Below, one piece after another: positions 2,770 through 25,959 of a stretch of 44,114 nucleotides of DNA (positions are counted from its first letter, which is position 1; the number at the start of each line of letters is the position of its first letter). A model generated the notes under the pieces. It was not told the DNA's origin. It saw only the letters and a list, made by a program, of their open reading frames with translations, and ran no database searches. The stretch lies in NCBI GenBank assembly GCA_903922075.1, contig CAIXSK010000254.1, positions 1-44,114 on the forward strand, in the 5' to 3' direction. Source of the DNA: an uncultured beta proteobacterium. GTDB lineage: Bacteria > Pseudomonadota > Gammaproteobacteria > Burkholderiales > Rhodocyclaceae. The translations under genes and the position numbers were made by a program.

Positions 2770-3258
2770 CTACTGGGACCGATTGCGGATATGCAGGGTT
2801 GCCGGGTAATCAACAGGCAGGCCAGTACCATCGGTATCGACCGGCGCCATCGTCAGACCTACGACGGAGGTCGATGCAAAACGCCGTGTAACCCGAAAAG
2901 ATACGGTCGCCAGCACATCGGGTTGCGGCTTTGCTGCAGGACCGTGAGGTGTCACATCTACGCGAATTCGCCCCTCGACTTTGTCAACTGAAGGATTGAA
3001 CAGGCTTCCGCTAGCCAAAAAACCTCCCGGTTTGACTGACTGAACCTCAATCACCGCTGGGTCGTATCCAATCACGAATGGCACTTCGGAAATACCCTGG
3101 CTTGCCGGATCGATGTATAGATGAACTTGAAAGGTCTCGCCGACGCCAAGGAGCGTCGGCGAGACAAATTTGAATCTGACGGTTTCAGCAGCGAAGGCCG
3201 AGAGAGACAAAACACAACAGACGCACAAGGAAAATACAACTCTAATTCTCGCATTCAT
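2770..3258 (-). CDS. Secreted cohesin-domain protein
   Basis: Signal peptide (VVFSLCVCCVLSLSAFA-AE) followed by a cohesin-like fold pattern (VGETFQVHLYIDPASQGISEVPFVIGYDPAVIEVQSVKPGGFL). Confidence 0.7.
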   Translation of the reverse strand: MNARIRVVFSLCVCCVLSLSAFAAETVRFKFVSPTLLGVGETFQVHLYIDPASQGISEVPFVIGYDPAVIEVQSVKPGGFLASGSLFNPSVDKVEGRIRVDVTPHGPAAKPQPDVLATVSFRVTRRFASTSVVGLTMAPVDTDGTGLPVDYPATLHIRNRSQ

Positions 3259-3314
3259 GTCGTTGTTTCCTTTGAAATGGTAGCAGTGTCTTATCGGCGC
3301 TTACGATACTCGAC

Positions 3315-5567
3315 TTATGGCAAGGTATAGGTGATTTCGAGCTTGGGTCGCAGCGTTACATTGGTTGCGTACTCGCTGGAATAAAACTGCTTCAGGTTGC
3401 CGTTTCCTGATACGCCAACGATTCGCCACCCATAGTTATTTTGACCCTGTTGCCACTCGGATACGCGAGCGCTTACGTCGAAGATCATCCAGCCAGGCGA
3501 AAATGGTGCACTGAATTGCGCATCATAGGCCGCGGTGTAGTCGGCGTCGACGCCCGCAGCACCTGGACTGGTCCAGCTTTCACCGATCTTGGGACGAAGC
3601 CAGGTGGCTTCCAGTTCTTTCCAGTCGCGGAGCATGGGATGCAGGCGATAGATAAAATCGTAGTTCGATTTGTAGATGCTCAACTTTGCACTTTCGATAA
3701 CCGCGTCGTCGGGTAATGGCCCACCTTCGCGTGCAAAAATCGCAAACTTGATCAACGGTGTGTACTTGGTCTGAAAGACCAGCAGGTTTTGCGTAGCGCC
3801 GGTGTTGCCTGACGTGCTGTAACTGGAGAGATATACGTCCGATGACCCGGAGTAGGTGTCCAGACCGCGCTGCAGGGTAGTTGTGACAGGCCCGCCAGCG
3901 CCTCCCGATGTGACAACTACATCAACAACAGCCGATTCGGTTTCCGCGCCGCTGTTGTCGGTCGCAATAGCCTTGATCGAGGCCGATCCCAAGGCGGTTG
4001 GCGTCCAGTTGACCGTGTAAGGGGGCGAAGTTACCGAGCCGATCAGGGTGCCATTGACCTTGAAGTCGACGCGGCTTACTGTCCCGTCGCTATCCGCCGC
4101 TGTGGCAAGGAGCGTCGCAGGTTGGCCGCGGATAACTTCGCTACCGGAAACCGGGTCGTCTATGGAAACTGTCGGTGCTACGTTGTTGGTGTTGGGCGCC
4201 ATCCAGCCTGTTGGCTTGTAAATCCAGATTTGGCCTTCAGTTTCGTGTTGAAGTCCAAGAAAGACATCAAACCCGGGAATGTATTTCCATTTTCCAAGAA
4301 TTCCGGTACCAACCCGGCCTGGAGGGACCTCACCGCCATTGAGCGGAAGTTGCTCCATGGTCCACCCCGTGGGGGCAATGGTGCTCGGCGGGACAAGCGA
4401 CCATAAGGCACCATCTCCGCACCACAGTACAAAGTGTTGGCGATTTTGGTCATAGTCGATCGCGCACAAACGCATGCTTTTGCCCGTTGCACCAAGCCAG
4501 GACGAAAATGTTGCCACAGAATCGCTAACGACGACCGCTTGATCCTTATTCGTCGGGCCGGCGGTAGCCAAATTCCAATAAACAAAGGGCTTGGTATTGT
4601 TGCCGGTCCGGACGAATACCTTTCGAACCGGATCAACTGCGCAGGTTGTCAGATCCGAAGTGCCATTCCAGTAAATACCAATCCGGCCGATATCGTCGGT
4701 TTGTGCATTGGACAATTCTCCCAGCACATGCCGGTACAGACTCGGGCTCGTAGCGTCAGGAGATGCGCCGGCACCGAGGTAAACCACCTCAGTTCCGTTC
4801 TCCTCCACATAGCCCGTGCACCCGTTCACATGGCGCTGCGGCATGACCTTGCCGGCAAGATTCTTCGTATGATCGCGGTTTAGCCACATGTTTCCGCCGA
4901 TCACATCGGGGAAGGGAGCTACCCGCTGAACATGGGAGCCAGTGGTGCCGCCGACCTGATTGCCGTTTGCCTTTGCAGGATCGAACATGTATGGCCCGGT
5001 GCGGCGTGTTTTTGACGAATCGTTTTCGTCTAGCCGGCTGTAGGGGCCACCGGTGTTGTAGCTGGCACCACCATAGTTCATGTAGCGGTCGAGCAACGGA
5101 AGAAAAACCGCATTGTCGTAGGTGTGGGCCGCGGGTGGGGCTGCATCTGCGCCGTCTTTTGCCCAAAAATACACGGTCGAACCCCAGCGCGTGATTTCGC
5201 TGGGTAGAGAGGCGCGTTCCCACTGAAGATTCCGTGAACGCCAGCGATAGACATCATTGCCACTGTAGTTCGCATGTCCGCCACCGTAGATGATCAGATC
5301 GCCCCGATTGCTATCCCAGGCATATCCGGCCCATGCGCTGATCACCCGGTCCGGTGGAGGATTGGACTGATAGTTGAGCGGCCTCTGGTCTGCCGGCGTC
5401 CAGACGTCAGAAATGAAATTGGTGTTTACCTTGACCCACGTACCTTCCGGCATCGTGGATACGATGTTCAGCAAGGTGCCTGTCGCATATGGCTCTTTTG
5501 CCGCCGTTGGCAAGGAGAAAGCGCAGGAAATCGATAGCGCTAATACCGTTGGGAAGTTGGCTCGCAT
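3315..5567 (-). CDS. Exported kelch-like protein with Ig-like domain and C-terminal DNRLRE domain
   Basis: Signal peptide MRANFPTVLALSISCAFSLPTAAK; YGGGHANYSGNDVYRW kelch-like motif; PTVSIDDPVSGSEVIRGQPATLLATAADSDGTVSRVDFKVNG Ig-like; C-terminal DNRLRE-like region. Start set to the internal ATG with signal peptide. Confidence 0.7.
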   Translation of the reverse strand: MRANFPTVLALSISCAFSLPTAAKEPYATGTLLNIVSTMPEGTWVKVNTNFISDVWTPADQRPLNYQSNPPPDRVISAWAGYAWDSNRGDLIIYGGGHANYSGNDVYRWRSRNLQWERASLPSEITRWGSTVYFWAKDGADAAPPAAHTYDNAVFLPLLDRYMNYGGASYNTGGPYSRLDENDSSKTRRTGPYMFDPAKANGNQVGGTTGSHVQRVAPFPDVIGGNMWLNRDHTKNLAGKVMPQRHVNGCTGYVEENGTEVVYLGAGASPDATSPSLYRHVLGELSNAQTDDIGRIGIYWNGTSDLTTCAVDPVRKVFVRTGNNTKPFVYWNLATAGPTNKDQAVVVSDSVATFSSWLGATGKSMRLCAIDYDQNRQHFVLWCGDGALWSLVPPSTIAPTGWTMEQLPLNGGEVPPGRVGTGILGKWKYIPGFDVFLGLQHETEGQIWIYKPTGWMAPNTNNVAPTVSIDDPVSGSEVIRGQPATLLATAADSDGTVSRVDFKVNGTLIGSVTSPPYTVNWTPTALGSASIKAIATDNSGAETESAVVDVVVTSGGAGGPVTTTLQRGLDTYSGSSDVYLSSYSTSGNTGATQNLLVFQTKYTPLIKFAIFAREGGPLPDDAVIESAKLSIYKSNYDFIYRLHPMLRDWKELEATWLRPKIGESWTSPGAAGVDADYTAAYDAQFSAPFSPGWMIFDVSARVSEWQQGQNNYGWRIVGVSGNGNLKQFYSSEYATNVTLRPKLEITYTLP

Positions 5568-5823
5568 GAAATACCCCCGTTTTTCTTTTTGAAATACAAA
5601 CAATCCATTGGGAAACCTATTCCATTATCGTATTACTGAATGCTGATCCGGTGGAAAATTTTCACGATTGGGCGCAGAAAATGCGGGGCCGAAATTCGGA
5701 CAGAGAGGTGAGTTCAATGTACGACATGCAGATATGCTCGATTAATTGCCGGAATGACAGGTGTGACTTTGCCACTTGCAACCATGGTGCTAGCATGATT
5801 GACCTCACTTACGGTTCCCCGCG

Positions 5824-8115
5824 ATGCAGATTCGATTGGACGATTGCCTGAAACAAACCCAGGTAGTGCTGCTTATGACCATGGTGCTGGGCGGATGTTC
5901 CCATCCGGCATTTCGGGACGGGCTGGGTTTCATGGCCGCCGGCAAGAAGGAAGAGGGCGTGGCGTCACTGGAGAAGGCGGTCCGTGAGCGGCCGCGCGAC
6001 GCCGAGATCAAGGCTTCGCTGATTCGCCACAAAGGCGAGACTGTCGATTCGTATCTGGACGAAGGCGACCGTCAACGGGCTGCCGGTCAGCCTGAGGCAT
6101 CGGACACGGCCTTTCGCCGGGCACTGGCCATCGACGGACGAAATACCCGCGCCCTGCAGGGATTGGAGCAACTGGCGGCAGACCGCCGGAATGCCGCGCA
6201 ACTGGTACAGGCCGAACAACTGCTGAAGAAGGGTGATCTGCTGGGGGCTGAACGTATTGTGCGCACTGTGCGGGTTCCGGATCCGCTCAATCCGGTGGCG
6301 ATCGCCTTGCAGCTACGGATCGACCAGCTGCGCGAGAAGGAAATGAATCCGTCGGCCAACCCGGCGGTCAAGGCGGCGCTGACCAAGCCGGTCGTGCTTG
6401 AGTTCCGCGATGCAACGTTGAAATCGGTGTTCGAAGTGCTGTCGCGCTCGTCGGGCTTGAACTTTGTGTTCGACAAGGACGTTAAGGGCGACACCAAGGT
6501 CACCTTCTTCGTCCGCAACAGCCCGCTGGAAGACATTCTGCGTTTGATCCTGACGACCAACCAGCTGGAAAAACGCCAGCTTAACGACAACAGCTTCCTG
6601 ATCTATCCGAATACCGCAGCCAAGGCCAAGGAATACCAGGAATTGGTGGTGCGCAGCTTCTACCTGGCTAACGCCGACGTCAAGCAGGCCCAGAACCTGG
6701 TCAAAACGGTGGCCAAGAGCAAGGATGTTTTCGCCGATGAAAAGCTCAATCTGCTGATCGTCAAGGACACGCCGGAGGCCATGCGACTGGTCGAGCGGCT
6801 GATCGACTCGATCGACCTGGCCGAGCCGGAGGTGATGCTGGAAGTCGAGGTGCTGGAGGTGACGCGCAGCCGGTTGAACGAGTTTGGCCTGGACTGGCCG
6901 GACAGCGTCAGCTATGGCTTGCTGCAGGCGCCGCAGGCAACGACGGTGCTGGTCAATGGCGTTCCTCAAAGCATCAGTACTTCGGCCGGTGGCACGCTGG
7001 CCGCCGGTTACATCGACCTGCGTAACCGGGGGGCGCTAACCAGTTTTGTCGCCAACCCCGGCCTGACCCTCAATCTCAGGGGGCAGAACGGCGACACCAA
7101 TGTGCTGGCCAACCCACGCATCCGTGTCAAGAACCGTGAAAAGGCGAAGATCCACATCGGCGAAAAACTGCCGGTATTCACCACCACCTCGACGGCCAAT
7201 GTCGGCGTTTCTGCCTCGGTCAGCTATCTCGATGTCGGCCTCAAGCTCGATGTCGAGTCCAATATTACGCTCGACGACGAGGTATCGATGAAGGTCGGGC
7301 TGGAGGTCAGCAGCATCGTCAAGGAAATCACCGGGCCTTCCAATTCGCTGGCCTACCAGGTTGGCACGCGCAGCGCGAGCACCGTGTTGCGCCTGAAAAA
7401 CGGCGAAACCCAGGTGCTCGCCGGCCTGATCAACGACGAAGAACGCAAGTCCACCAGCCATATTCCCGGGCTTGGCGAAATTCCTGTCCTTGGCCGCGCT
7501 TTTGGCAGTCAGCGCGATACTTCGATCAAGACCGAGATCATCCTGCTGATCACGCCGCGCGTGCTGCGCAACATTCATCGGCCGGATTTCGGTCAGCCGG
7601 CCTTGTCCTCCGGAACCGAGTCGGCCGTGGGCGCAGCGCCGCTGACGGTCAGGACGCAGGGGCCGAAATCGCTGGCCATCGCACCGCGCGGCGGCATCGC
7701 CCCGATGGCGGCCGGGCCAGCGCCGGTGGCAGCAACATCATACAAAGTGCCGGAGGCGCCCGAGCGTGGCGCCGCGCTGGCGGCGCCGGCCGCCGACAAT
7801 GCCCTGCAAATCGGCGGGCCGGCCGAGGCGGCCGGCGGCAGCGAGATTGAGCTTTTCATTACCGCGTCAGGGCCGGCGGCGCTCAAGGTCGACCTGGCCT
7901 ACGACCCGGCGTTATTGGAGGCCAAGGCGCCTGCCGCCGCTTCGCCGGGTCTGGTCGGTCTGCGCGTCGAGCAGGGGCGGGGCAGTCTGCGCCTGCGCGT
8001 GCTGCCAGGGGCGCAGGGCAATACGAAAATCGAGGTGGCCGGCGCCGTACTCGAAAGTGGCGATGCTCTGCCGGGTGGCATGCCGGCCCATTCCCTCAAG
8101 CTCAATTCGCCATGA
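5824..8115 (+). CDS. gspD: Secretin (GspD/PilQ-like lipoprotein) with C-terminal cohesin-like domain
   Basis: Lipobox LGGC; N-terminal repeat region; secretin motifs (VLANPRIRVKNREKAKIHIGEKLPV; GLINDEERKSTSHIPGLGEIPVLGRAFGS; TEIILLITPRVLR); C-terminal GGSEIELFITASGPAALKVDLAYDPALLEA cohesin-like. Confidence 0.85.
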   Translation: MQIRLDDCLKQTQVVLLMTMVLGGCSHPAFRDGLGFMAAGKKEEGVASLEKAVRERPRDAEIKASLIRHKGETVDSYLDEGDRQRAAGQPEASDTAFRRALAIDGRNTRALQGLEQLAADRRNAAQLVQAEQLLKKGDLLGAERIVRTVRVPDPLNPVAIALQLRIDQLREKEMNPSANPAVKAALTKPVVLEFRDATLKSVFEVLSRSSGLNFVFDKDVKGDTKVTFFVRNSPLEDILRLILTTNQLEKRQLNDNSFLIYPNTAAKAKEYQELVVRSFYLANADVKQAQNLVKTVAKSKDVFADEKLNLLIVKDTPEAMRLVERLIDSIDLAEPEVMLEVEVLEVTRSRLNEFGLDWPDSVSYGLLQAPQATTVLVNGVPQSISTSAGGTLAAGYIDLRNRGALTSFVANPGLTLNLRGQNGDTNVLANPRIRVKNREKAKIHIGEKLPVFTTTSTANVGVSASVSYLDVGLKLDVESNITLDDEVSMKVGLEVSSIVKEITGPSNSLAYQVGTRSASTVLRLKNGETQVLAGLINDEERKSTSHIPGLGEIPVLGRAFGSQRDTSIKTEIILLITPRVLRNIHRPDFGQPALSSGTESAVGAAPLTVRTQGPKSLAIAPRGGIAPMAAGPAPVAATSYKVPEAPERGAALAAPAADNALQIGGPAEAAGGSEIELFITASGPAALKVDLAYDPALLEAKAPAAASPGLVGLRVEQGRGSLRLRVLPGAQGNTKIEVAGAVLESGDALPGGMPAHSLKLNSP

Positions 8116-8591
8116 TCGGCTTTCCCGAGCGGGGTTTTACCCTGATCGAACTGATCATCACCGTGGCTATCATCGGTATCCTGGCCATGACGGCGATGCC
8201 GATCATCGAAGTGACGGCCAAGCGGCAAAAGGAAACCGAATTTCGGGCTGCGCTGCGGGAGATTCGCAGCGCTATCGATGCCTACCGGCGTGCGGTCGAT
8301 GAGGGAAAACTGGAGCGAAAGGTCGGTGAGAGCGGTTATCCGCGCCGACTGGAAGATCTTGCGCAGGGGGTCGAGAATATCCAGGATCCGGACAAGGGAA
8401 GGCTATATTTCCTGCGCCGCCTGCCGCGCGATCCATTCAACGCCAACCCGGCCCTCGCTGCGGCGCAGACCTGGGGCAAGCGCAGCTACGCCAGCCCCCC
8501 CGAAGCGCCGGTCGAAGGCGCTGATGTCTTCGACATCCATTCGCTGTCCTCGGGTGTCGGCCTGAACGGCATCGCCTACCGGGAATGGTGA
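8112..8591 (+). CDS. Type II secretion pseudopilin
   Basis: Prepilin motif ERGFTLIELIITVAIIGILAM; overlaps the secretin stop. Confidence 0.85.
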   Translation: MIGFPERGFTLIELIITVAIIGILAMTAMPIIEVTAKRQKETEFRAALREIRSAIDAYRRAVDEGKLERKVGESGYPRRLEDLAQGVENIQDPDKGRLYFLRRLPRDPFNANPALAAAQTWGKRSYASPPEAPVEGADVFDIHSLSSGVGLNGIAYREW

Positions 8592-8593
8592 GC

Positions 8594-8974
8594 ATGGCTG
8601 TCCGCAATCGGGGGTTCACGCTGATCGAGTTGCTGGTCGTCATGGCGGTGATCGCGACTTTGCTGACCATTGCCGTGCCCCGTTATTTCCAGCATCTTGA
8701 TCGGGCGCGTGAGGCCTCGTTGCGCGAATCGCTGGCCGTGATGCGCGATGCCCTCGACAAGTACCGTGGCGACACCGGCCGTTATCCGGAAACGCTGGAT
8801 GAACTGGTTGCCAAACGCTACCTGCGTCGGGTGCCGCTTGACCCGATCACCGAAAGCACCGAGACCTGGGTCGTTGTTTCGCCGCCCGACGAACCGGGGC
8901 AGCGCAAGCTATGGGATATTCGCAGCGGGGCCGAAGGGCAGGGGTTGGACGGCAGCGAATACTCGACATGGTGA
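8594..8974 (+). CDS. Type II secretion pseudopilin
   Basis: NRGFTLIELLVVMAVIATLLTIAVPRY; start taken at ATG 8594. Confidence 0.82.
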   Translation: MAVRNRGFTLIELLVVMAVIATLLTIAVPRYFQHLDRAREASLRESLAVMRDALDKYRGDTGRYPETLDELVAKRYLRRVPLDPITESTETWVVVSPPDEPGQRKLWDIRSGAEGQGLDGSEYSTW

Positions 8975-9501
8975 AATGCTACGGTCGCCCCCTTTTTTCG
9001 GGCAAAAATGAAATAAGTTGGCAGGCCGGTTTTACCTATCTCGGCCTGCTCTTTGCTGTTGCACTTGCCGGCATTGCGCTGGCCGGTACCGGTGTGCTCT
9101 GGCAACTGGAAAGCCGGCGCGAGAAGGAAAAGGAATTGCTCTTCATCGGCGAGCAATACCGTCGGGCCATAGGCAGCTACTACGACAAGTCACCCGGTAA
9201 CGAAAAGCAATATCCGGAAAAACTCGACGAGCTGATCGAAGACAAGCGCTTTCCCACGCCCCTGCGCCACTTGCGTCGCCTCTACCGTGATCCGATGAGT
9301 ACGGATGGCGAATGGGAACTGATCCGTCTGCAAGGGCGGATTATCGGCGTGGCCAGCCGGTCGCAGCAAAACCCCGTCAAGCTTGCCGGCTTTGGCGTGG
9401 ATCAACAGGATTTCGAGGGAGCTACAAGGTATGCCGACTGGCGTTTCATCAGCAACGGCAGCAGTGTGCCAGCGGTGACTGATACCCGAGGTAGGCCTTA
9501 A
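8968..9501 (+). CDS. Pseudopilin-like protein lacking Glu+5
   Basis: MVKCYGRPLFSGKNEISWQAGFTYLGLLFAVALAGIALAG; overlaps preceding stop; N-terminal leader lies on repeat copy 2. Confidence 0.75.
   Translation: MVKCYGRPLFSGKNEISWQAGFTYLGLLFAVALAGIALAGTGVLWQLESRREKEKELLFIGEQYRRAIGSYYDKSPGNEKQYPEKLDELIEDKRFPTPLRHLRRLYRDPMSTDGEWELIRLQGRIIGVASRSQQNPVKLAGFGVDQQDFEGATRYADWRFISNGSSVPAVTDTRGRP
8975..9009 (+). repeat. AATGCTACGGTC dispersed repeat, copy 2
   Basis: AATGCTACGGTC gccccc ttttttcgggc aaaaat; exact 12-mer core. Confidence 0.85.
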
Positions 9502-10387: not shown

Positions 10388-10879
10388 ATGATTTGTCTTC
10401 CCCCAAATACCTCTGGCCATCTCGTGCTGCTTACCCCGACTTCCCGCTTGCTCCGTCGTTTGGATGTTTCCCGACTTGCCCAGCGCGGCTTCACGCTGCT
10501 CGAACTGCTGGTCGTCATGGTCATCATCGGTCTGCTTGCCGGCTATGTCGGACCGAAATATTTTTCCCAGATCGGCAAGTCGGAAGTCAAGGCGACACGG
10601 GCGCAGATTGATGCGCTGGAGAAGGCGCTTGACCATTATCGCCTCGATGTCGGCCGCTACCCGAGCACCGAGCAGGGGCTGGCGGCGCTGGTCAAGCGGC
10701 CGGCCGGCGAGAATCGCTGGCATGGCCCCTACCTGAAAAAGGATGTGCCGGCCGATCCCTGGGGTGCCCAGTACCAATACGCGCAGCCCGGTGAGCACGG
10801 CGAATTCGATCTCTTCTCCTTCGGCAGGGATGGCAGGGCCGGCGGCGAGGACGAGTCGGCCGATATCACCAACTGGTGA
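10388..10879 (+). CDS. gspG: Major pseudopilin GspG
   Basis: QRGFTLLELLVVMVIIGLLAGYVGPKYF; DVGRYPSTEQGLAALVKRP...WHGPYLKKDVPADPWGAQYQY typical GspG. Confidence 0.9.
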   Translation: MICLPPNTSGHLVLLTPTSRLLRRLDVSRLAQRGFTLLELLVVMVIIGLLAGYVGPKYFSQIGKSEVKATRAQIDALEKALDHYRLDVGRYPSTEQGLAALVKRPAGENRWHGPYLKKDVPADPWGAQYQYAQPGEHGEFDLFSFGRDGRAGGEDESADITNW

Positions 10880-10893
10880 GCGGCGGAGCGGCG

Positions 10894-12078
10894 ATGGACT
10901 ACGACGTGACGGCTGTTTTTCCCGGGCGGGGCGTTGCCCACCTGCGGGTCACGGCCGATTCGCCGGAGGCGCTTGCCGCCACCCCCGCGCTGCAGGGCGG
11001 GGTGATCGTGTCGGCCGAGCCGCTCGCCGCGCGGCGCGGAGCAAGCCGGGCCGGAAAATTCCCGTTACCGTTGTTCACCCGCCAGTTGCTGTCCCTGCTG
11101 CAGGCTGGCCTGACCATTGTCGAAGGGCTGGAAACGCTGGCCGCGCAGGATAAGGACTCGGCCACTTCCGATCTGCTGAATGGCCTGCTTGCCCGCTTGC
11201 GCGAGGGCCAGTCGCTATCGGCCGCCCTGCAGTATTACCCGGCGGCCTTTCCCGATCTCTACGTCGCCACGGTCAAGGCCAGCGAAAGGACCGGTGACCT
11301 GCCGGAGGCGTTGCAGCGCTACATTGTCATTCACGAAAAATTGGCGGACCTGCGCAAGAAAATCCTCAGTGCTGCGATCTATCCGGCGCTGCTGATGTCG
11401 GTGGGCGCGTTGGTTACACTCTTTCTGCTTGGCTATGTAGTGCCGCGTTTCAGCCTCGTCTTCGCCGACAGTGGCCGCGACCCGGAAGGGTTGTCCAGCC
11501 TGCTTTTTATCTGGGGCGATTTCATCAATCATCATGCCGGTGAACTGGCGATCGGCTGCGTAGCGGGCCTGGCCGGGCTGGTTTTCCTGTTTTCCCTGCC
11601 TGCCGTGCGGGCCGTTCTGGCCCGCGCCATCTGGCGGGTACCGGCGCTTGGCGAACGCATTCGCCTCGTGTTTCTCGCCCGTTTCTACCGGACGAGCGGC
11701 ATGCTGCTGCGGGCCGGCATCCCGCTTCGAACAACGCTCGGCATGGTCGCCGACATCCTGCCTTCGGCCATGCGTCCCGGTTTGTCGCGGGCGATCGCCG
11801 ACATCGAGCAGGGCCAGCCGTTTTCCAGGGCCGCGGCCGCCGGCGGTCTGACGACGCCGGTCGCCCTGCGGATGATTGCCGTCGGCGAACGCAGCGGCCA
11901 GCTCGGCGACATGATGGAAGCAGTGGCCACTTTCTACGATGAGGAAATCAACCGTCTTGTCGATACCTTCACCCGGCTGTTCGAGCCCTTGCTGATGACG
12001 GTCATTGGTTTTGTCATCGGCGGTATCGTCATGCTCCTGTATATGCCGATCTTCGAGCTGGCCGGGAATTTTCAGTAG
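10894..12078 (+). CDS. gspF: Type II secretion inner-membrane protein GspF
   Basis: FTRQLLSLLQAGLTIVEGLETLA; C-terminal FEPLLMTVIGFVIGGIVMLLYMPIFELAG. Confidence 0.9.
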   Translation: MDYDVTAVFPGRGVAHLRVTADSPEALAATPALQGGVIVSAEPLAARRGASRAGKFPLPLFTRQLLSLLQAGLTIVEGLETLAAQDKDSATSDLLNGLLARLREGQSLSAALQYYPAAFPDLYVATVKASERTGDLPEALQRYIVIHEKLADLRKKILSAAIYPALLMSVGALVTLFLLGYVVPRFSLVFADSGRDPEGLSSLLFIWGDFINHHAGELAIGCVAGLAGLVFLFSLPAVRAVLARAIWRVPALGERIRLVFLARFYRTSGMLLRAGIPLRTTLGMVADILPSAMRPGLSRAIADIEQGQPFSRAAAAGGLTTPVALRMIAVGERSGQLGDMMEAVATFYDEEINRLVDTFTRLFEPLLMTVIGFVIGGIVMLLYMPIFELAGNFQ

Positions 12079-12081
12079 AAA

Positions 12082-13797
12082 ATGGGCATGAAATCACCGA
12101 CGGCGGAAGACATGGCGATCGATAACCCGGGAAGGCAAAACCTGCTCGCCGAAGCGCATCGTCTGGCGGCGGCTGGCGGCGGCGTGCCGGCTGTAATGGC
12201 TGGCCTGCAGGCGGCGTTCGCCCTGGACGAGGAAGCCGCTGGCGAACTGGCGGCGGCCGCCTTCGGTCTCTCGGCGATCAGCCTGAGCGAGATGTCCGGC
12301 CATTCGCTGGCGCTGACGCTGGCTTCCTTCGCCGAATTCGTCCGCCGCCAGACGCTGATCCTGGAAGTCGGCGACGCCTACCTGATCGCCACCCCCAATC
12401 CCTTCGACGCCGTGCTGCGCGACTGGCTCGAAGGCCTGGTGCCGCTTGGCAAGCCCGTGATCTGGCGCCTCGCGGCGCCATCGGTGCTGGCTGCCTTCCT
12501 GGCCCGCGAGGAATCCCAGGTCCGGGCACTGGATGGCAGCCTGGGCAGCGAGGGCGGCCAGATTGCCATCGACGCGGAGGCCGAGGTTCTATCGCTGCAA
12601 CGCATTTCCGAGGACGGCCGAGCCATCGTCCGGCTTGTTCGGTCTACGCTGCACGATGGCCTGAAAGCCGGGGCCAGCGATATCCACATCGAGGCCAATA
12701 ACCGTGGCCTGGCCATCAAATACCGCATCGACGGCGTGCTCAATTATGCAGGCTCGATCGATGGCAGCGAGACCGCCGAGCAGATGATTTCCCGCATCAA
12801 GGTGCTGTCCGAACTCGATATCGCCGAGCGCCGGGTGCCTCAGGACGGCCGCTTCAAGGTTAGCTGGCAGGAGCGCGAGATCGACATCCGCGTTTCGATC
12901 ATGCCCAGCATCTGGGGCGAGGATGCCGTGCTGCGCATCCTCGACAAGCAGGCGCTGACCGACCACTTGCAGGGCCTGCGCCTTGATGCCATGGGCTTCG
13001 ACGCCGACATCATGGGGCGTCTGCGTCGCCTGGCCAGCGAGCCCTACGGGATGGTGCTGGTCACCGGCCCGACCGGCAGCGGCAAGACGACGACACTTTA
13101 TGCCGCACTCTCGGAAATCAACCGCGGCGAGGACAAGATCATCACCATTGAGGATCCGGTCGAGTACCAGTTGAGCGGCGTGCTGCAAATTCCGGTCAAC
13201 GAGAAAAAAGGCCTGAGCTTTGCCCGTGGCCTGCGCTCCATCCTGCGCCACGATCCGGACAAGATCATGGTTGGCGAGATCCGCGATGCGGAAACGGCGC
13301 AGATCGCCGTGCAGGCGGCGCTGACTGGGCACCTGGTGTTCACCACCGTGCATGCCAACAACGTCTTCGACGTGATCGGCCGTTTCCTGCACATGGAGGT
13401 CGATCCCTATAACCTGGTATCGGCCTTGAACGGCGTTGTCGCTCAGCGCCTGATCCGCACCCTGTGCCTGTCCTGCGGCCAGCCGGCGGCGCCCTCGCCC
13501 GAAGCGCTGGCCCATGCCGAGATCGACCGCCTGGTCGGCGCCGGCTGGAAGTTCCGGCAGGCCGTCGGCTGCGGTGCCTGTCGCGGCACCGGCTACAAGG
13601 GGCGACGGGCGATTGCCGAAATGCTTGTCCTCAACGATGAAATCCGCGAGCTGATCATCGGCCGCGCTCCGATCCGCCAGCTCAAGGAGGCGGCCCGCCG
13701 CAGCGGCACCCGCTCCCTGCGCGAGAACGCCATCGACCTCGTGCGCGATGGCATTACCAGCCTGGAAGAAGCCAACCGTGTCACTTTCGTTGCTTGA
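12082..13797 (+). CDS. gspE: Type II secretion ATPase GspE
   Basis: Walker A GPTGSGKTTTLYAAL, VGEIRDAETAQIAVQAALTGHLVFTTVHANN, CxxC zinc motif (CLSCG...CGACRGTGYKGR). Confidence 0.92.
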   Translation: MGMKSPTAEDMAIDNPGRQNLLAEAHRLAAAGGGVPAVMAGLQAAFALDEEAAGELAAAAFGLSAISLSEMSGHSLALTLASFAEFVRRQTLILEVGDAYLIATPNPFDAVLRDWLEGLVPLGKPVIWRLAAPSVLAAFLAREESQVRALDGSLGSEGGQIAIDAEAEVLSLQRISEDGRAIVRLVRSTLHDGLKAGASDIHIEANNRGLAIKYRIDGVLNYAGSIDGSETAEQMISRIKVLSELDIAERRVPQDGRFKVSWQEREIDIRVSIMPSIWGEDAVLRILDKQALTDHLQGLRLDAMGFDADIMGRLRRLASEPYGMVLVTGPTGSGKTTTLYAALSEINRGEDKIITIEDPVEYQLSGVLQIPVNEKKGLSFARGLRSILRHDPDKIMVGEIRDAETAQIAVQAALTGHLVFTTVHANNVFDVIGRFLHMEVDPYNLVSALNGVVAQRLIRTLCLSCGQPAAPSPEALAHAEIDRLVGAGWKFRQAVGCGACRGTGYKGRRAIAEMLVLNDEIRELIIGRAPIRQLKEAARRSGTRSLRENAIDLVRDGITSLEEANRVTFVA

Positions 13798-14530
13798 GCG
13801 CCTGACGCTGTTCATCCACCCGCAACGCGTCACCCTCGAGCGGCAGGGCTGGCGCGGCAAGTCTTCACGCCAGATGCTGGCGGTCGGGGTGTCGGTGGCC
13901 GGCGAGGCCGACTGGCAACCGGCCCTGGCGGCTGCGGAAATCCTGCTCAAGACGGTAGGCCGGCGGGGCGCCAGCCTGCGCATCGTGGTTGCCGATCCCT
14001 TCGTGCGCTACGCCCTGTTGCCGTGGAGCGAGCGCATCGTCAACCGCCAGGCCCGGCTGGCCATGGCCCGCGCCCTGCTCAGGAATACCCTGGGCGACAA
14101 GGCCGATGCGCTCGACATCGCACTCGACCGGCCGGCCTTTGGCCAGAATGGTATCGCGGCCGGGATCGATGGCCGCCTGCTGGCTGCCTTGCGGGGGGGC
14201 GCCAAGACCGCCGGTCTGCGTCTGATCAGCCTGCAGCCGCGCCTGATTGTCGAACTGGCGGTGCATCGCCGGCAACTGGAAGATGGCTGGTTCGCCTGCC
14301 TCGATGCCGGCTGGACCTGTCTGCTTGGCATGCATGCCGGCCAGGTCACCAGCCTGCATAACCATCGCACGGCGCCCGGTGAGCTGGCCGGTTTGATGAT
14401 CGCCGGGAATGCTACGGTCGGCAGCAAAAAAGTGCATATTTCCGCCATTGGCGGGGCGGCACCCAGTATCGGCGAAGGCTGGGAAACCCGGGTTTTGGCC
14501 GCCGCCGTCGAGGGGGGCGCGCATGCGTGA
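13778..14530 (+). CDS. PilM/GspL-like protein
   Basis: Position in operon directly after gspE with overlap; GTG start (VSLSLLERLTLFIHPQ); followed by PilN/O/P-like genes. Confidence 0.65.
   Translation: MSLSLLERLTLFIHPQRVTLERQGWRGKSSRQMLAVGVSVAGEADWQPALAAAEILLKTVGRRGASLRIVVADPFVRYALLPWSERIVNRQARLAMARALLRNTLGDKADALDIALDRPAFGQNGIAAGIDGRLLAALRGGAKTAGLRLISLQPRLIVELAVHRRQLEDGWFACLDAGWTCLLGMHAGQVTSLHNHRTAPGELAGLMIAGNATVGSKKVHISAIGGAAPSIGEGWETRVLAAAVEGGAHA
14408..14442 (+). repeat. AATGCTACGGTC dispersed repeat, copy 3
   Basis: AATGCTACGGTC ggcagc aaaaaagtgca tatttc; exact 12-mer core inside the PilM/GspL-like CDS. Confidence 0.8.
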
Positions 14531-15050
14531 AATCGAGCTCGATTTCCAGCCGCGCCGACCGCGTGCGCTGACCGTCGTCCTGCTCGCCGCCGGTCTGCTG
14601 CTGGCTGGCGATGCCTGGCTGGATGCCCGCGCTCTCGGCGCACAACTGGCCGAGCTTGAGTCCGGGCTGGCGCAGGCCAAGCACCGGGCCGAACGCCTTG
14701 AAGCCGAGCACCGTAACAGCCAGCCGGAACACGTCTTCTCGGCCGACGAGAGCAAGGCGCTGCGCCTCGCCATCGACGCCATCCGGGTCGATTGGGAGGG
14801 CCTCTATCGGGCCATCGACCAGGCGGTCGGCGAAGATGTTGCCTTGCTCGCCATTCGCCCCAGCACCAGCGCTCAGGTCGTGCAGATTTCCGGCGAGGCG
14901 CGCAACATGAAGGCGGCGCTGGCCTTTGTCGACGCCCTGCGTGTCGCCCCGCTGGCCAAGGTCGCCCTGCTGTCGCATCAGATCAAACAGAACGATCCGC
15001 AACAACCCGTCATTTTCGAGATATCCGCGACATGGCTGATCGGTTCCTGA
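14523..15050 (+). CDS. PilN-like protein
   Basis: Short cytoplasmic N-terminus, one TM (ALTVVLLAAGLLLAGDAWL), coiled-coil-like segment; operon position. Confidence 0.65.
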   Translation: MREIELDFQPRRPRALTVVLLAAGLLLAGDAWLDARALGAQLAELESGLAQAKHRAERLEAEHRNSQPEHVFSADESKALRLAIDAIRVDWEGLYRAIDQAVGEDVALLAIRPSTSAQVVQISGEARNMKAALAFVDALRVAPLAKVALLSHQIKQNDPQQPVIFEISATWLIGS

Positions 15051-15601
15051 AACTCGCCCCGGCCCGCCTGGCATTTGCGCTGGCCAACTTGCCGGTGCTG
15101 CCGCTGATCGCCTTTCTGCTCGTTGTCGCCGTTGCGCTGGCGCATCTTTTCCTGCTGCCTGCCCGCGAGGCCGCCATCGAGGAGGGCGAACGCCGCCTGG
15201 CTCGCTTCGAACGCAACGCGCGGCATGCCCTGATCGAGCAACAGGCGGCCCGGGTGTCGCCAGCCGATACCCGGCAGCGCCTGCTTGAGCGCTTCCCCGG
15301 TGAAGATGATTTGAATGCCGAACTCGGTCGCCTGATCGCCCTGGCCACCGAGCAGGGATTGCAGGTGCCGAGCGGCGATTACCGCCTGCTGCCCGGCAAG
15401 GACGGACTATTCGACCGTTACGTGTTGAACCTGCCGGTCAAGGGCAGCTACCAGACGGTGCGGCGTTACCTGTCGGCGGTGCGCGCCGAGTTTCCCGAGC
15501 TTGCCGTCGACGACGTCAGTTTGCGCCGGGAGAGCATTGACAGCCCGGAGGTCGAAGCGCAACTGCGCTTCATCCTGTTCGGCCGGAGAAATGCGTCGTG
15601 A
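15032..15601 (+). CDS. PilO/GspM-like protein
   Basis: MADRFLKLAPARLAFALANLPVLPLIAFLLVVAVALAHLFLLPAREAAIEEGE; GSYQTVRRYLSAVRAEFPELAVDDVSLRRE typical of PilO-like proteins. Confidence 0.65.
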   Translation: MADRFLKLAPARLAFALANLPVLPLIAFLLVVAVALAHLFLLPAREAAIEEGERRLARFERNARHALIEQQAARVSPADTRQRLLERFPGEDDLNAELGRLIALATEQGLQVPSGDYRLLPGKDGLFDRYVLNLPVKGSYQTVRRYLSAVRAEFPELAVDDVSLRRESIDSPEVEAQLRFILFGRRNAS

Positions 15602-16125
15602 AACCCAAGCAACGCTGGGCGATCCTCGGCAGCCTCCTGTTCGCCACGCTGTTGGCCGGCTATCTGATCGACGATGAACCGCTGCCGGACAAAAAACCGC
15701 GCCAGCGGGGCGCCGTGACCGGGTCAGCCGGCATCCCGGACAATGCCGTGCAGCGTGATGCGGTGGCCGCGAAAAATCTGGCTGCAATGCCACTGTCGTT
15801 GCCCCTGTCACCGGCGGCCGATAGCGGCGCTGAGGCGGGGCAGGGCATCGACCCCTTCCGGGCCAAGAGCTGGTACGTTGCGCCGCCGCCACCGCCTCCC
15901 GCCAAGCCGACGGCACCACCGCTGCCTTTCCAGTATCTCGGCAAACTCAATGAAGATGGCGAGATTCGCGTCTTCCTCAATCATCAGGGCAAGCACCTGA
16001 TCGCCCGGACCGGCGACATCATCAACGACACCTACCGGGTCGATGAAATTGCTGCCGGGCGGATGAGCTTCCTCTACTTGCCGCTGAAGGAAATCCAGGT
16101 GCTGGCGATCGGCGCCGAAAAATAG
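15598..16125 (+). CDS. PilP/GspC-like protein
   Basis: N-terminal TM, proline-rich linker, FQYLGKLNEDGEIRVFLNHQGKHLIARTGDIINDTYRVDEI core. Confidence 0.65.
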   Translation: MKPKQRWAILGSLLFATLLAGYLIDDEPLPDKKPRQRGAVTGSAGIPDNAVQRDAVAAKNLAAMPLSLPLSPAADSGAEAGQGIDPFRAKSWYVAPPPPPPAKPTAPPLPFQYLGKLNEDGEIRVFLNHQGKHLIARTGDIINDTYRVDEIAAGRMSFLYLPLKEIQVLAIGAEK

Positions 16126-23149: not shown

Positions 23150-23370
23150 GAAGGTTTGAACCGTTCTCGCGGTGAGGCTGTCGAGTGTGGATGACGAATG
23201 CGCATGGTGTGGCGGTGGCTTTGGATCGTCAGCAAAGGTAGAAACATAGCATGTCCGGCACTCAGACTATTCTGTCGACATGCAAATTCGGCGTTTGCCA
23301 TGTGGCCGGGGTTTAATATGATGGCATCCTGCTCGGAATGGCAGATGCGGAAATCCGGAACGGAGTTTTG

Positions 23371-25959
23371 ATGTTGGACCCAACCAGAAAGTTTTGCCCA
23401 CACCTCGCTTTTGCAGTGCTGGTGCTTTGTTGCAGTCTGATCGTTCAGGAGGCAACTGGTGCCGAGCTTGGCGGGGGCGCCGTATCGGCTAAAACAGGGG
23501 GCCGTGCCGCCGCAAGCTACGATGCAAATGCCGACTGGCTGAGGCGTTCGCGCGGACAGGGTGTGGTTGTGGCCGTCGGATTTGACCATATCGACGAATG
23601 GGCAAAGTATTCGTTCGACCGTGACAAATGCAATCCGGATTACCAGAAAAGTACCGGGGCATTTTCGAAGGCGGGCTGCCGGAACAATGCCTGGGATTCG
23701 AGGGTTCGCGCATCGGGTGCCGGGTCGGTTCGATTCGATATTCTTTCGCAAACGCATCAGGGGGCAGGCGGGAGCATGGCCATCCCGTTCGGCGATTTTG
23801 CGACCCATCAATTCGGGGCGAACAGCGAGTTCTGGGTTTCGTGGCGGCAGCGGATGGATGCGCGTTATATCGCGGGATACAAGGCGTCAGGAGGCGGCGG
23901 GCGGTATGCAAACGCCAAGCAGGTGATCATCGCCCAAGGGGATATGCCCGCGGGTGACGGCAAGAAGGTAATTTCCGGCAATGCTTGCAGCGAAGCCGAG
24001 GTGGTGGTGGTCAGTTCCAATCCGGGGGGGCGGGCGCCTTATCCCATGGGTTATATCGAATGTGGCCGCTACGTTTCGTTCGAGCAGGTCCTGTCGCGAG
24101 GAAGCTTTGCCGGGGATGCCCGTGGCAGCACGCCGCTGACTCGGCAAAACATGCGCAAGAATGCACAGGGGCAGTTCAGTTGTATTGGGCATCCAGACTC
24201 GCTGGACCAGTCGGGGTGCTTTACCTATCGGCCGGATACATGGATCACTTACATGGTTCATTTGAAACTCGGCCCCGAGGGGCGGGCGGTCAGCTCTGTT
24301 TCCCGGAAAGATCAGCCGGGCTACGTCAATTCCACTTATGAACTCTTTGCGGCCTATGACGGGGAAGACTTTCAGTTGCTTCACCATCAGCAGGATGTGG
24401 TGATCCCGAGGGGCCAGCACTACATCGGCGGAGATCCTCTGCTGGCTTCGTCATACAAATCTGGCTACGGCCCAGCTGACGGCCATCCGCAGGCAAAATT
24501 CGGAAAACTGTGGCTGCTTCCCTACATGACCAACAAGGATCCGACGGAGGTTACCCCGACCGCTTCCACCTGGTTCGACGAGGTGATTGTTTCCCGATGC
24601 CGAATTCCGGCTCCCGGGCAGGCGACATCCCGCGACTGCAATCCAGTGGACGGACAGCCGGTTGCGACCATGAGAAGTAGGGAGGGGGCCGGCCAGCCAG
24701 CAGCGGGGCAGGCCATCGTTCGCAGCGATAGCGCCACGACACCCGGGCCGGCAACGCCGCCGGTGCCGGCAGGGTCTGCGATCCATTCGACAAAGGCGGC
24801 CGGATTGTCTCCGCTGCAACTGGCAACTGTGATCAGTAACCTCCCACCCGGGCAATGGTTCGAAATATCAGGATCGGCAATGGAAGGAGTCAAAACCGAC
24901 GCTTGCAAACTCAAGGAGATTCGTGATGCCTACGAGCGTGTTATCAAGGACATGGCCGGCTGTAATTCGGATCGGATGATGTCGTATAGCGGTGGCGCTT
25001 ACGATTCAAAACGGCATCGTCTGATGGTCTGGGGGGGAGGGCATTCCACTTATGCCGGAAACGAGTTGTACGCGTTCGATCTGTCCGCTGCAAAGTGGAT
25101 CAGAGTGACCGAGCCATCGCCGCCGGTCCTTGAAAACACGCTTGATGCCGAACGGAAGGTCATGCAGCCGCAATCCCCGCATTGGCATGATCCGAGATTT
25201 CCTCCTGCGCCTATCTCTGTGCATTCCTATGATCAACTGGAGTATCTCCCGGATCAGGACATGTTTTTTGCGGCGGGTGGTGCAACTTACAGCGCCAATG
25301 GATATGCCAGTGGCCTGGTCTGGCTCTTTGACCTGAACCGGTCCGATGCTAGCGGCTGGTCACAGGCACCGATGCCGGGGAAGGCTTATGGTTTGTTTGA
25401 ATTCAATATGTCGACCGCGTATGACCCGGTTTCCGGGCGGGTCCTGATGCGTGGTTATTCGGAGGCTGGCAGTTTTGACCCGTCCGAAAAAAACTGGCAT
25501 ATCACGCAGCGCAAGCTCCGCTCCCGCGGATTGGGGACGGTTGGTGAAATCGATCCCAAGAGGCGGGTGTTTATCGTCATTGGCGGGGGGAGTGCGGAGC
25601 TGTACCGCATAAGTCCAAGCGGTGAATTCGGGGAAATGCAGGCACTCGTGACATCAGGCGACAAGGAGATCGAGCAGTGTTATGCGCCAGGCCTGACATT
25701 CGACACAAAGGCCGATCGCTTTGTCGCATGGTGTGGAAAAGGCGAAGTCTATTCCCTGAATCTGGAAAAACGCCTATGGGTAAAACATCGGCCAAAAAGT
25801 GGTGCAGTGCCTCCGGATCCGGCCGATGCACCGGGTGTCAAGGGCACCTACGGTCGCTTTCGATATATGCCGGAATACAACGCCTTTGTTCTGGTGAGCG
25901 GAATGCGCAGCAATGTGTTCGTTTACCGTCTGGCCGACGATAAAGGGCGCATTCCTTAA
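23371..25959 (+). CDS. Large exported protein with N-terminal lectin/lyase-like region and C-terminal kelch-like domain
   Basis: Signal region CPHLAFAVLVLCCSLIVQEATGA; C-terminal WGGGHSTYAGNELYAFDL similar to the 3315-5567 product. Confidence 0.65.
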   Translation: MLDPTRKFCPHLAFAVLVLCCSLIVQEATGAELGGGAVSAKTGGRAAASYDANADWLRRSRGQGVVVAVGFDHIDEWAKYSFDRDKCNPDYQKSTGAFSKAGCRNNAWDSRVRASGAGSVRFDILSQTHQGAGGSMAIPFGDFATHQFGANSEFWVSWRQRMDARYIAGYKASGGGGRYANAKQVIIAQGDMPAGDGKKVISGNACSEAEVVVVSSNPGGRAPYPMGYIECGRYVSFEQVLSRGSFAGDARGSTPLTRQNMRKNAQGQFSCIGHPDSLDQSGCFTYRPDTWITYMVHLKLGPEGRAVSSVSRKDQPGYVNSTYELFAAYDGEDFQLLHHQQDVVIPRGQHYIGGDPLLASSYKSGYGPADGHPQAKFGKLWLLPYMTNKDPTEVTPTASTWFDEVIVSRCRIPAPGQATSRDCNPVDGQPVATMRSREGAGQPAAGQAIVRSDSATTPGPATPPVPAGSAIHSTKAAGLSPLQLATVISNLPPGQWFEISGSAMEGVKTDACKLKEIRDAYERVIKDMAGCNSDRMMSYSGGAYDSKRHRLMVWGGGHSTYAGNELYAFDLSAAKWIRVTEPSPPVLENTLDAERKVMQPQSPHWHDPRFPPAPISVHSYDQLEYLPDQDMFFAAGGATYSANGYASGLVWLFDLNRSDASGWSQAPMPGKAYGLFEFNMSTAYDPVSGRVLMRGYSEAGSFDPSEKNWHITQRKLRSRGLGTVGEIDPKRRVFIVIGGGSAELYRISPSGEFGEMQALVTSGDKEIEQCYAPGLTFDTKADRFVAWCGKGEVYSLNLEKRLWVKHRPKSGAVPPDPADAPGVKGTYGRFRYMPEYNAFVLVSGMRSNVFVYRLADDKGRIP

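Follow-up and report, generated by a model that had tools for sequence, protein, structure and literature searches.

The window, the whole stretch of 44,114 nucleotides that was analysed, comes from a genome of the Rhodocyclaceae close to Azonexus, judged by its nearest named relatives. On the plus strand it encodes a secretin followed by the genes of a secretion machine, and on the minus strand a small exported protein and, lying between this and the secretin, a kelch-like protein with a CBM96 domain (Table 1). The operon contains GspE, GspF, GspG, pseudopilins, PilN/O-like proteins and a GspC/PilP-like protein, which places it among the T2SS-like machines. Directly downstream of the machine genes is an alkaline phosphatase gene (PF00245; 16195-17832, plus strand) whose product is a possible substrate, and positions 19691-44114 read by eye as an exopolysaccharide-type cluster, with a flippase, glycosyltransferases, asparagine synthases and polysaccharide deacetylase-like genes.

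Table 1. Positions of the features discussed in the text, with the evidence for each
Feature	Position	Strand	Evidence
Stand-alone exported cohesin, 162 aa, Sec signal peptide	2770-3258	-	PF00963, 45.4 bits; AlphaFold/Foldseek
Full-length cohesin domain of the small protein	2815-3144	-	PF00963
Exported kelch-like protein, Big_7 and CBM96/DNRLRE	about 3315-5603	-	Pfam; no cohesin, no dockerin
Secretin of T2SS/type IV filament-like machine, 763 aa	5824-8115	+	Pfam/NCBIfam profiles; gene order kept among relatives
Lipobox LGGC, secretin residues 22-25 (Cys25, then Ser)	5887-5898	+	Sequence reading
STN domain, secretin residues 212-262	6457-6609	+	PF07660, 42.3 bits
Secretin_N domain, secretin residues 276-334	6649-6825	+	PF03958, 40.8 bits
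Secretin (pore) domain, secretin residues 421-582	7084-7569	+	PF00263, 135.9 bits
Ala/Pro/Gly-rich linker joining pore domain to tail module	7570-7803	+	Sequence; module start per AlphaFold model
Short cohesin-fold module, without strand 5	about 7804-8112	+	Profiles, AlphaFold, Foldseek
Three pseudopilin-like genes after the secretin (8112-8591, 8585-8974, 8911-9501)	8112-9501	+	Profiles, gene order
GspG, GspF and GspE homologues of the same machine	10388-13797	+	Profiles, gene order
Genes in the positions of PilM/GspL (no Pfam match), PilN (weak) and PilO/T2SSM_b	13748-15601	+	Pfam, gene order
PilP/GspC-like bitopic inner-membrane protein	15598-16125	+	Homologue carries a cohesin module in three other genomes

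From N to C terminus the secretin reads as a lipobox, a TPR-like N-terminus, STN, Secretin_N and Secretin domains, an Ala/Pro linker and a short cohesin-fold tail. Pfam matches to the pore domain PF00263 and to the N-terminal periplasmic domains PF03958 and PF07660 put it in the secretin superfamily, and it stays below the NCBIfam equivalog cut-offs for T2SS GspD (TIGR02517, 186.5 against 351), PilQ (TIGR02515, 180 against 284) and MshL (TIGR02519, 127 against 250). The LGGC lipobox predicts a lipidated, self-piloting liposecretin of the HxcQ kind, and a lipobox-like motif is present in the sequence of many of its relatives as well.

Cohesin is the fold that holds cellulosomes together. A preliminary description of this DNA had proposed a cohesin-like domain both at the secretin C-terminus and on the small secreted protein, on the strength of YDPAxxE peptides, and these lie exactly where it had placed them. 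For the small protein the match is direct, with PF00963 (Cohesin) scoring 45.4 bits where the cut-off is 24.1 (E = 1.2e-11) over residues 39-148; its AlphaFold model has a mean pLDDT of 94 and the nine-stranded jelly roll, and Foldseek aligns it to solved cohesins with TM scores of 0.80-0.83. The secretin tail by itself has no Pfam cohesin match, falling short of the curated PF00963 cut-off, which 14 of 22 aligned relatives do match. An HMM trained on the tails of other genera, with the window and the congeneric locus L061 left out, finds the window tail at E = 6e-17, and its background at E ≤ 1e-3 among all remaining ORFs of the fetched loci consists of other secretins, the small cohesin and one PEP-CTERM cohesin, and nothing else. 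The tail profile aligns to a profile of full secretin-tail cohesins with 99.1% probability (hhalign), and a PDB sequence search with the profile of the tail family reaches solved cellulosomal cohesins at E = 1.6e-10. The AlphaFold model of the tail has a mean pLDDT of 86 with a core above 90, and all of its eight best Foldseek matches are cohesins, led by 2vo8 (E = 2.9e-6, TM 0.68/0.63). By profile-profile and structure comparison the modelled tail thus belongs to the cohesin superfamily fold, and the YDPAxxE resemblance is a matter of real homology and not a chance motif. Structure prediction had been set beforehand as the check on which the cohesin claim would stand or fall, and it returned a cohesin fold for both proteins.

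The tail is a shortened version of that fold. Relative to the full form, hhalign leaves about 18 alignment columns empty in the window secretin, and the strand at residues 62-68 of the small-protein model, which is strand 5 in a numbering assigned here from strand order, is missing from the tail model. Dockerins bind the face of the cohesin made by strands 8-3-6-5 (PMC8063739). Judged by the models, that face is complete in the small protein with regard to strand 5, and strand 5 is lost from it in the short secretin form.

Secretins of this type carry the module widely but not constantly. PF00963 is matched in 22 of 151 genomes of the family, nearly always in long frames of 764-1281 aa, which are secretins where the frames were read, and a profile of the full form matches 49 of 300 genomes of the order, mostly in frames of 750-955 aa. 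Across the order the module ends secretins of one and the same type, inside a conserved machine operon; the pore subunit has come, either ancestrally or repeatedly, to carry the cohesin-fold module behind a linker rich in Ala and Pro. We collected 80 related betaproteobacterial secretin loci in addition to the window, and the secretin frame could be read in 78, with a full cohesin tail in 16, a short one in 36 (window included), none in 23, and an undecided state in 3, two of them cut by a contig end (L056, L114) and one ambiguous (L110); two tails that score higher with the short profile (L108, L112) are counted as short and not as full. Among cultivated relatives, Aromatoleum and Zoogloea have the short form and Herbaspirillum the full one. 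The congeneric secretins L057-L060, which are 81-84% identical to that of the window, have no module. In a quick tree built from the shared part, with the two loci cut by a contig end treated as lacking the module, its presence and absence change about nine times, with at least five of the changes forced by starred branches. The module is dispensable, being absent from close congeners and repeatedly changed on the tree, and this many changes is what one expects of an optional specificity or accessory part.

A second place for the module in the same machine is the PilP/GspC-like subunit, to whose homologue a cohesin is fused in three genomes, G363, G268 and G487 (C-terminal in each: L169 3219-4328, plus strand; L170 3993-5138, minus strand; L171 4027-5061, minus strand). 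The secretins of G363 and G268 (669 and 702 aa) end in a Pro-rich tail without a module, the fusion gene and the secretin gene of G363 being on different contigs, and no secretin was found in G487 at E ≤ 1e-40. A PilP-like frame was recognised in 72 loci and carries a cohesin in none. This subunit has an N-terminal transmembrane segment, which should leave its C-terminus in the periplasm. The complementary pattern in G363 and G268, a small sample of two genomes on which the relocation from secretin to PilP rests, argues for a module that acts within the machine and on its periplasmic side. The secretin tail would be in the same compartment. In GspD the stretch that follows the pore domain is the S-domain, to which the periplasmic pilotin binds (PMC3542185). 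As the place of this S-domain (PMC3542185, PMC4604470), the C-terminal region of a secretin is expected to be periplasmic rather than surface-exposed, the window tail included.

The candidate role raised in the preliminary description was a cellulosome-like tether that holds dockerin-bearing or other exported proteins at the outer membrane. In its favour are the real cohesin fold on both the secretin and the small protein, genuine dockerin-cohesin gene pairs in the same order, with PEP-CTERM cohesins, and three genomes in which a secretin-type cohesin and a dockerin are both present. However, a dockerin search of the window's own genome, 96% complete, found no PF00404 match even at E ≤ 10, a search in which strongly diverged dockerins could be missed. 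Among 300 genomes of the order, 38 have machine-type cohesins, as assigned by frame length and match strength, and 13 have dockerins; the two occur together in three, against 1.6 expected (p = 0.22), and in the family set in 1 against 1.0 expected. The nine order genomes with only adhesin- or PEP-CTERM-type cohesins overlap with dockerins in 4 cases against 0.39 expected (p = 0.0002), so that dockerins accompany surface cohesins and not secretin tails. With strand 5 of the dockerin face missing from the short form, and the tail expected in the periplasm, we consider the outer-membrane tether very improbable, and classical dockerin binding, having been tested, is not supported as the way in which the secretin tail works. 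A periplasmic role within the machine is more likely. Several loci elsewhere are of interest with regard to dockerins themselves. L153 (G005:C1) has, on the minus strand at 6903-9291 and 11101-13574, a tandemly duplicated pair of an exported amidase with a C-terminal dockerin and then a PEP-CTERM-tailed cohesin, which is plausibly a real, exosortase-anchored cohesin-dockerin pair in a betaproteobacterium. In L173 (G278:C1, 1652-5358, plus strand), from another family, a reprolysin-like metalloprotease with a C-terminal dockerin is directly followed by a PEP-CTERM cohesin. G079 combines a full secretin-tail cohesin (its secretin is in L156) with five dockerin-like matches in long frames (e.g., G079:C145:1824-1958 and G079:C98), and is, within the family set, the most promising genome in which to look for a secretin-dockerin link.

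The small protein raises the separate possibility of an acquired exported pair, free cohesin and kelch/Big_7/CBM96 protein, that has nothing to do with the secretin and binds polysaccharide, or its two members each other, at the surface. The two genes adjoin on one strand, the kelch gene about 56 bp upstream of the cohesin, and are possibly co-transcribed. GC3 is 0.52 in the cohesin and 0.62 in the kelch gene against 0.77 in the secretin; the cohesin turns up in a single one of 77 congeneric genomes, and of 60 other genomes G189 alone has a full-length relative of the kelch protein. From these figures the free cohesin was probably acquired recently, and likely together with the kelch gene, and G005 and G278 have an analogous order, an exported dockerin protein and then a cohesin. 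But the kelch protein is without a dockerin, no cohesin occurs within the 14 kb read around its G189 homologue, so that the pairing is not conserved, and of the modules sampled the full secretin tails come closest to the free cohesin, at 27-31% identity. By this homology the free cohesin is a module of the same type in full length, exported separately, and we regard a role wholly apart from the secretin as possible though on the unlikely side. It could work in soluble form where the tail module does, as a partner or a competitor, or it could belong with the kelch protein. Three other ideas about it were tried and dropped: a PEP-CTERM tail or lipobox (the sequence has neither, and no anchor), a regular place beside the secretin (the flanks of the 80 related loci hold no stand-alone cohesin), and a conserved pairing with the kelch protein (not seen in the loci of relatives). 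The kelch protein itself (about 3318-5603, minus strand) shares a distantly related region, 32% identity over ~145 residues, with a second exported kelch-like protein of the window (23338-25959, plus strand).

For the tail we come down, as an evenly balanced judgement, on an optional periplasmic protein-protein docking module of the T2SS-like machine. Judging from the topology and the relocation to the PilP/GspC-like subunit, it would hang in the periplasm beside the secretin ring, where GspD has its S-domain and GspC its C-terminal domain, and there it may present exported substrates, or hold the PilP/GspC-like subunit or the pseudopilus at the vestibule; the docking would be optional and would not go by way of classical dockerins. 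A purely passive addition, one that stabilises the secretin multimer or fills the S-domain place without any specific partner, would explain most of the same facts. The module sits where GspD has its S-domain (PMC3542185), it is repeatedly lost, and the secretin is a predicted lipoprotein like self-piloted HxcQ (PMC4604470), and may therefore need no pilotin-binding S-domain. A passive part predicts neither the move to an inner-membrane subunit of the PilP/GspC kind nor the keeping of a folded interaction module through divergence across the order, and we take such a role to be unlikely. A wider version of the docking reading, in which the cohesin-fold module is an exchangeable periplasmic adaptor that the secretin or the GspC/PilP-like subunit can carry, or that is exported free, and that recruits substrates or machine parts independently of dockerins, is offered tentatively, as a doubtful but possible extension.

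The way in which folded substrates are recognised by T2SS-like machines has long been an open question. A discrete fold of the interaction type, shifting between the pore and the GspC/PilP-like subunit and missing from close relatives, provides a natural set for testing whether specificity is set by the tail. For annotation, betaproteobacterial "cohesin" entries come in two kinds, a machine type without dockerins and a surface type (PEP-CTERM or adhesin) that co-occurs with them. NCBI already names some such secretins "cohesin domain-containing protein" (e.g., Janthinobacterium NZ_CP139977.1 and Eleftheria NZ_CP106952.1), so the secretin-cohesin architecture is known at the annotation level. 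A literature search, with most subscription papers outside it, found no published description of secretin-cohesin proteins, and the architecture, present in databases, has apparently gone unstudied. New here are the short form, the move of the module from one subunit to another and the free copy.

The Janthinobacterium and Eleftheria proteins are of the same secretin family, matching 90-92% of a cohesin-bearing query with the cohesin part taken by name, and, judged by that name, theirs is probably the full, Pfam-detectable form, whereas that of the window is shortened and below Pfam detection. The T2SS GspD (PulD/PulS) has in common with the window secretin the pore domain, the periplasmic N-domains and an extra C-terminal domain, but in the window this domain is a cohesin fold on a long linker and not a short pilotin-binding segment, the secretin itself has a lipobox, and the score lies below the TIGR02517 cut-off. 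In HxcQ of Pseudomonas aeruginosa the secretin is itself a lipoprotein, as is predicted for the window secretin; the available text of PMC4604470 reports no cohesin tail on it, and the likeness drawn here is that of the lipobox. Cellulosomal cohesin-dockerin pairs share the cohesin fold with the window modules, but in the window genome no dockerin was found, and strand 5 of the dockerin face is gone from the secretin form. The non-cellulosomal cohesins 2vo8 and 2jh2, from glycoside hydrolases of Clostridium perfringens, and 2xdh, from Archaeoglobus fulgidus, belong to other proteins, none of them a secretin, unlike the window tail, and they are the best or near-best structural matches of both window modules.
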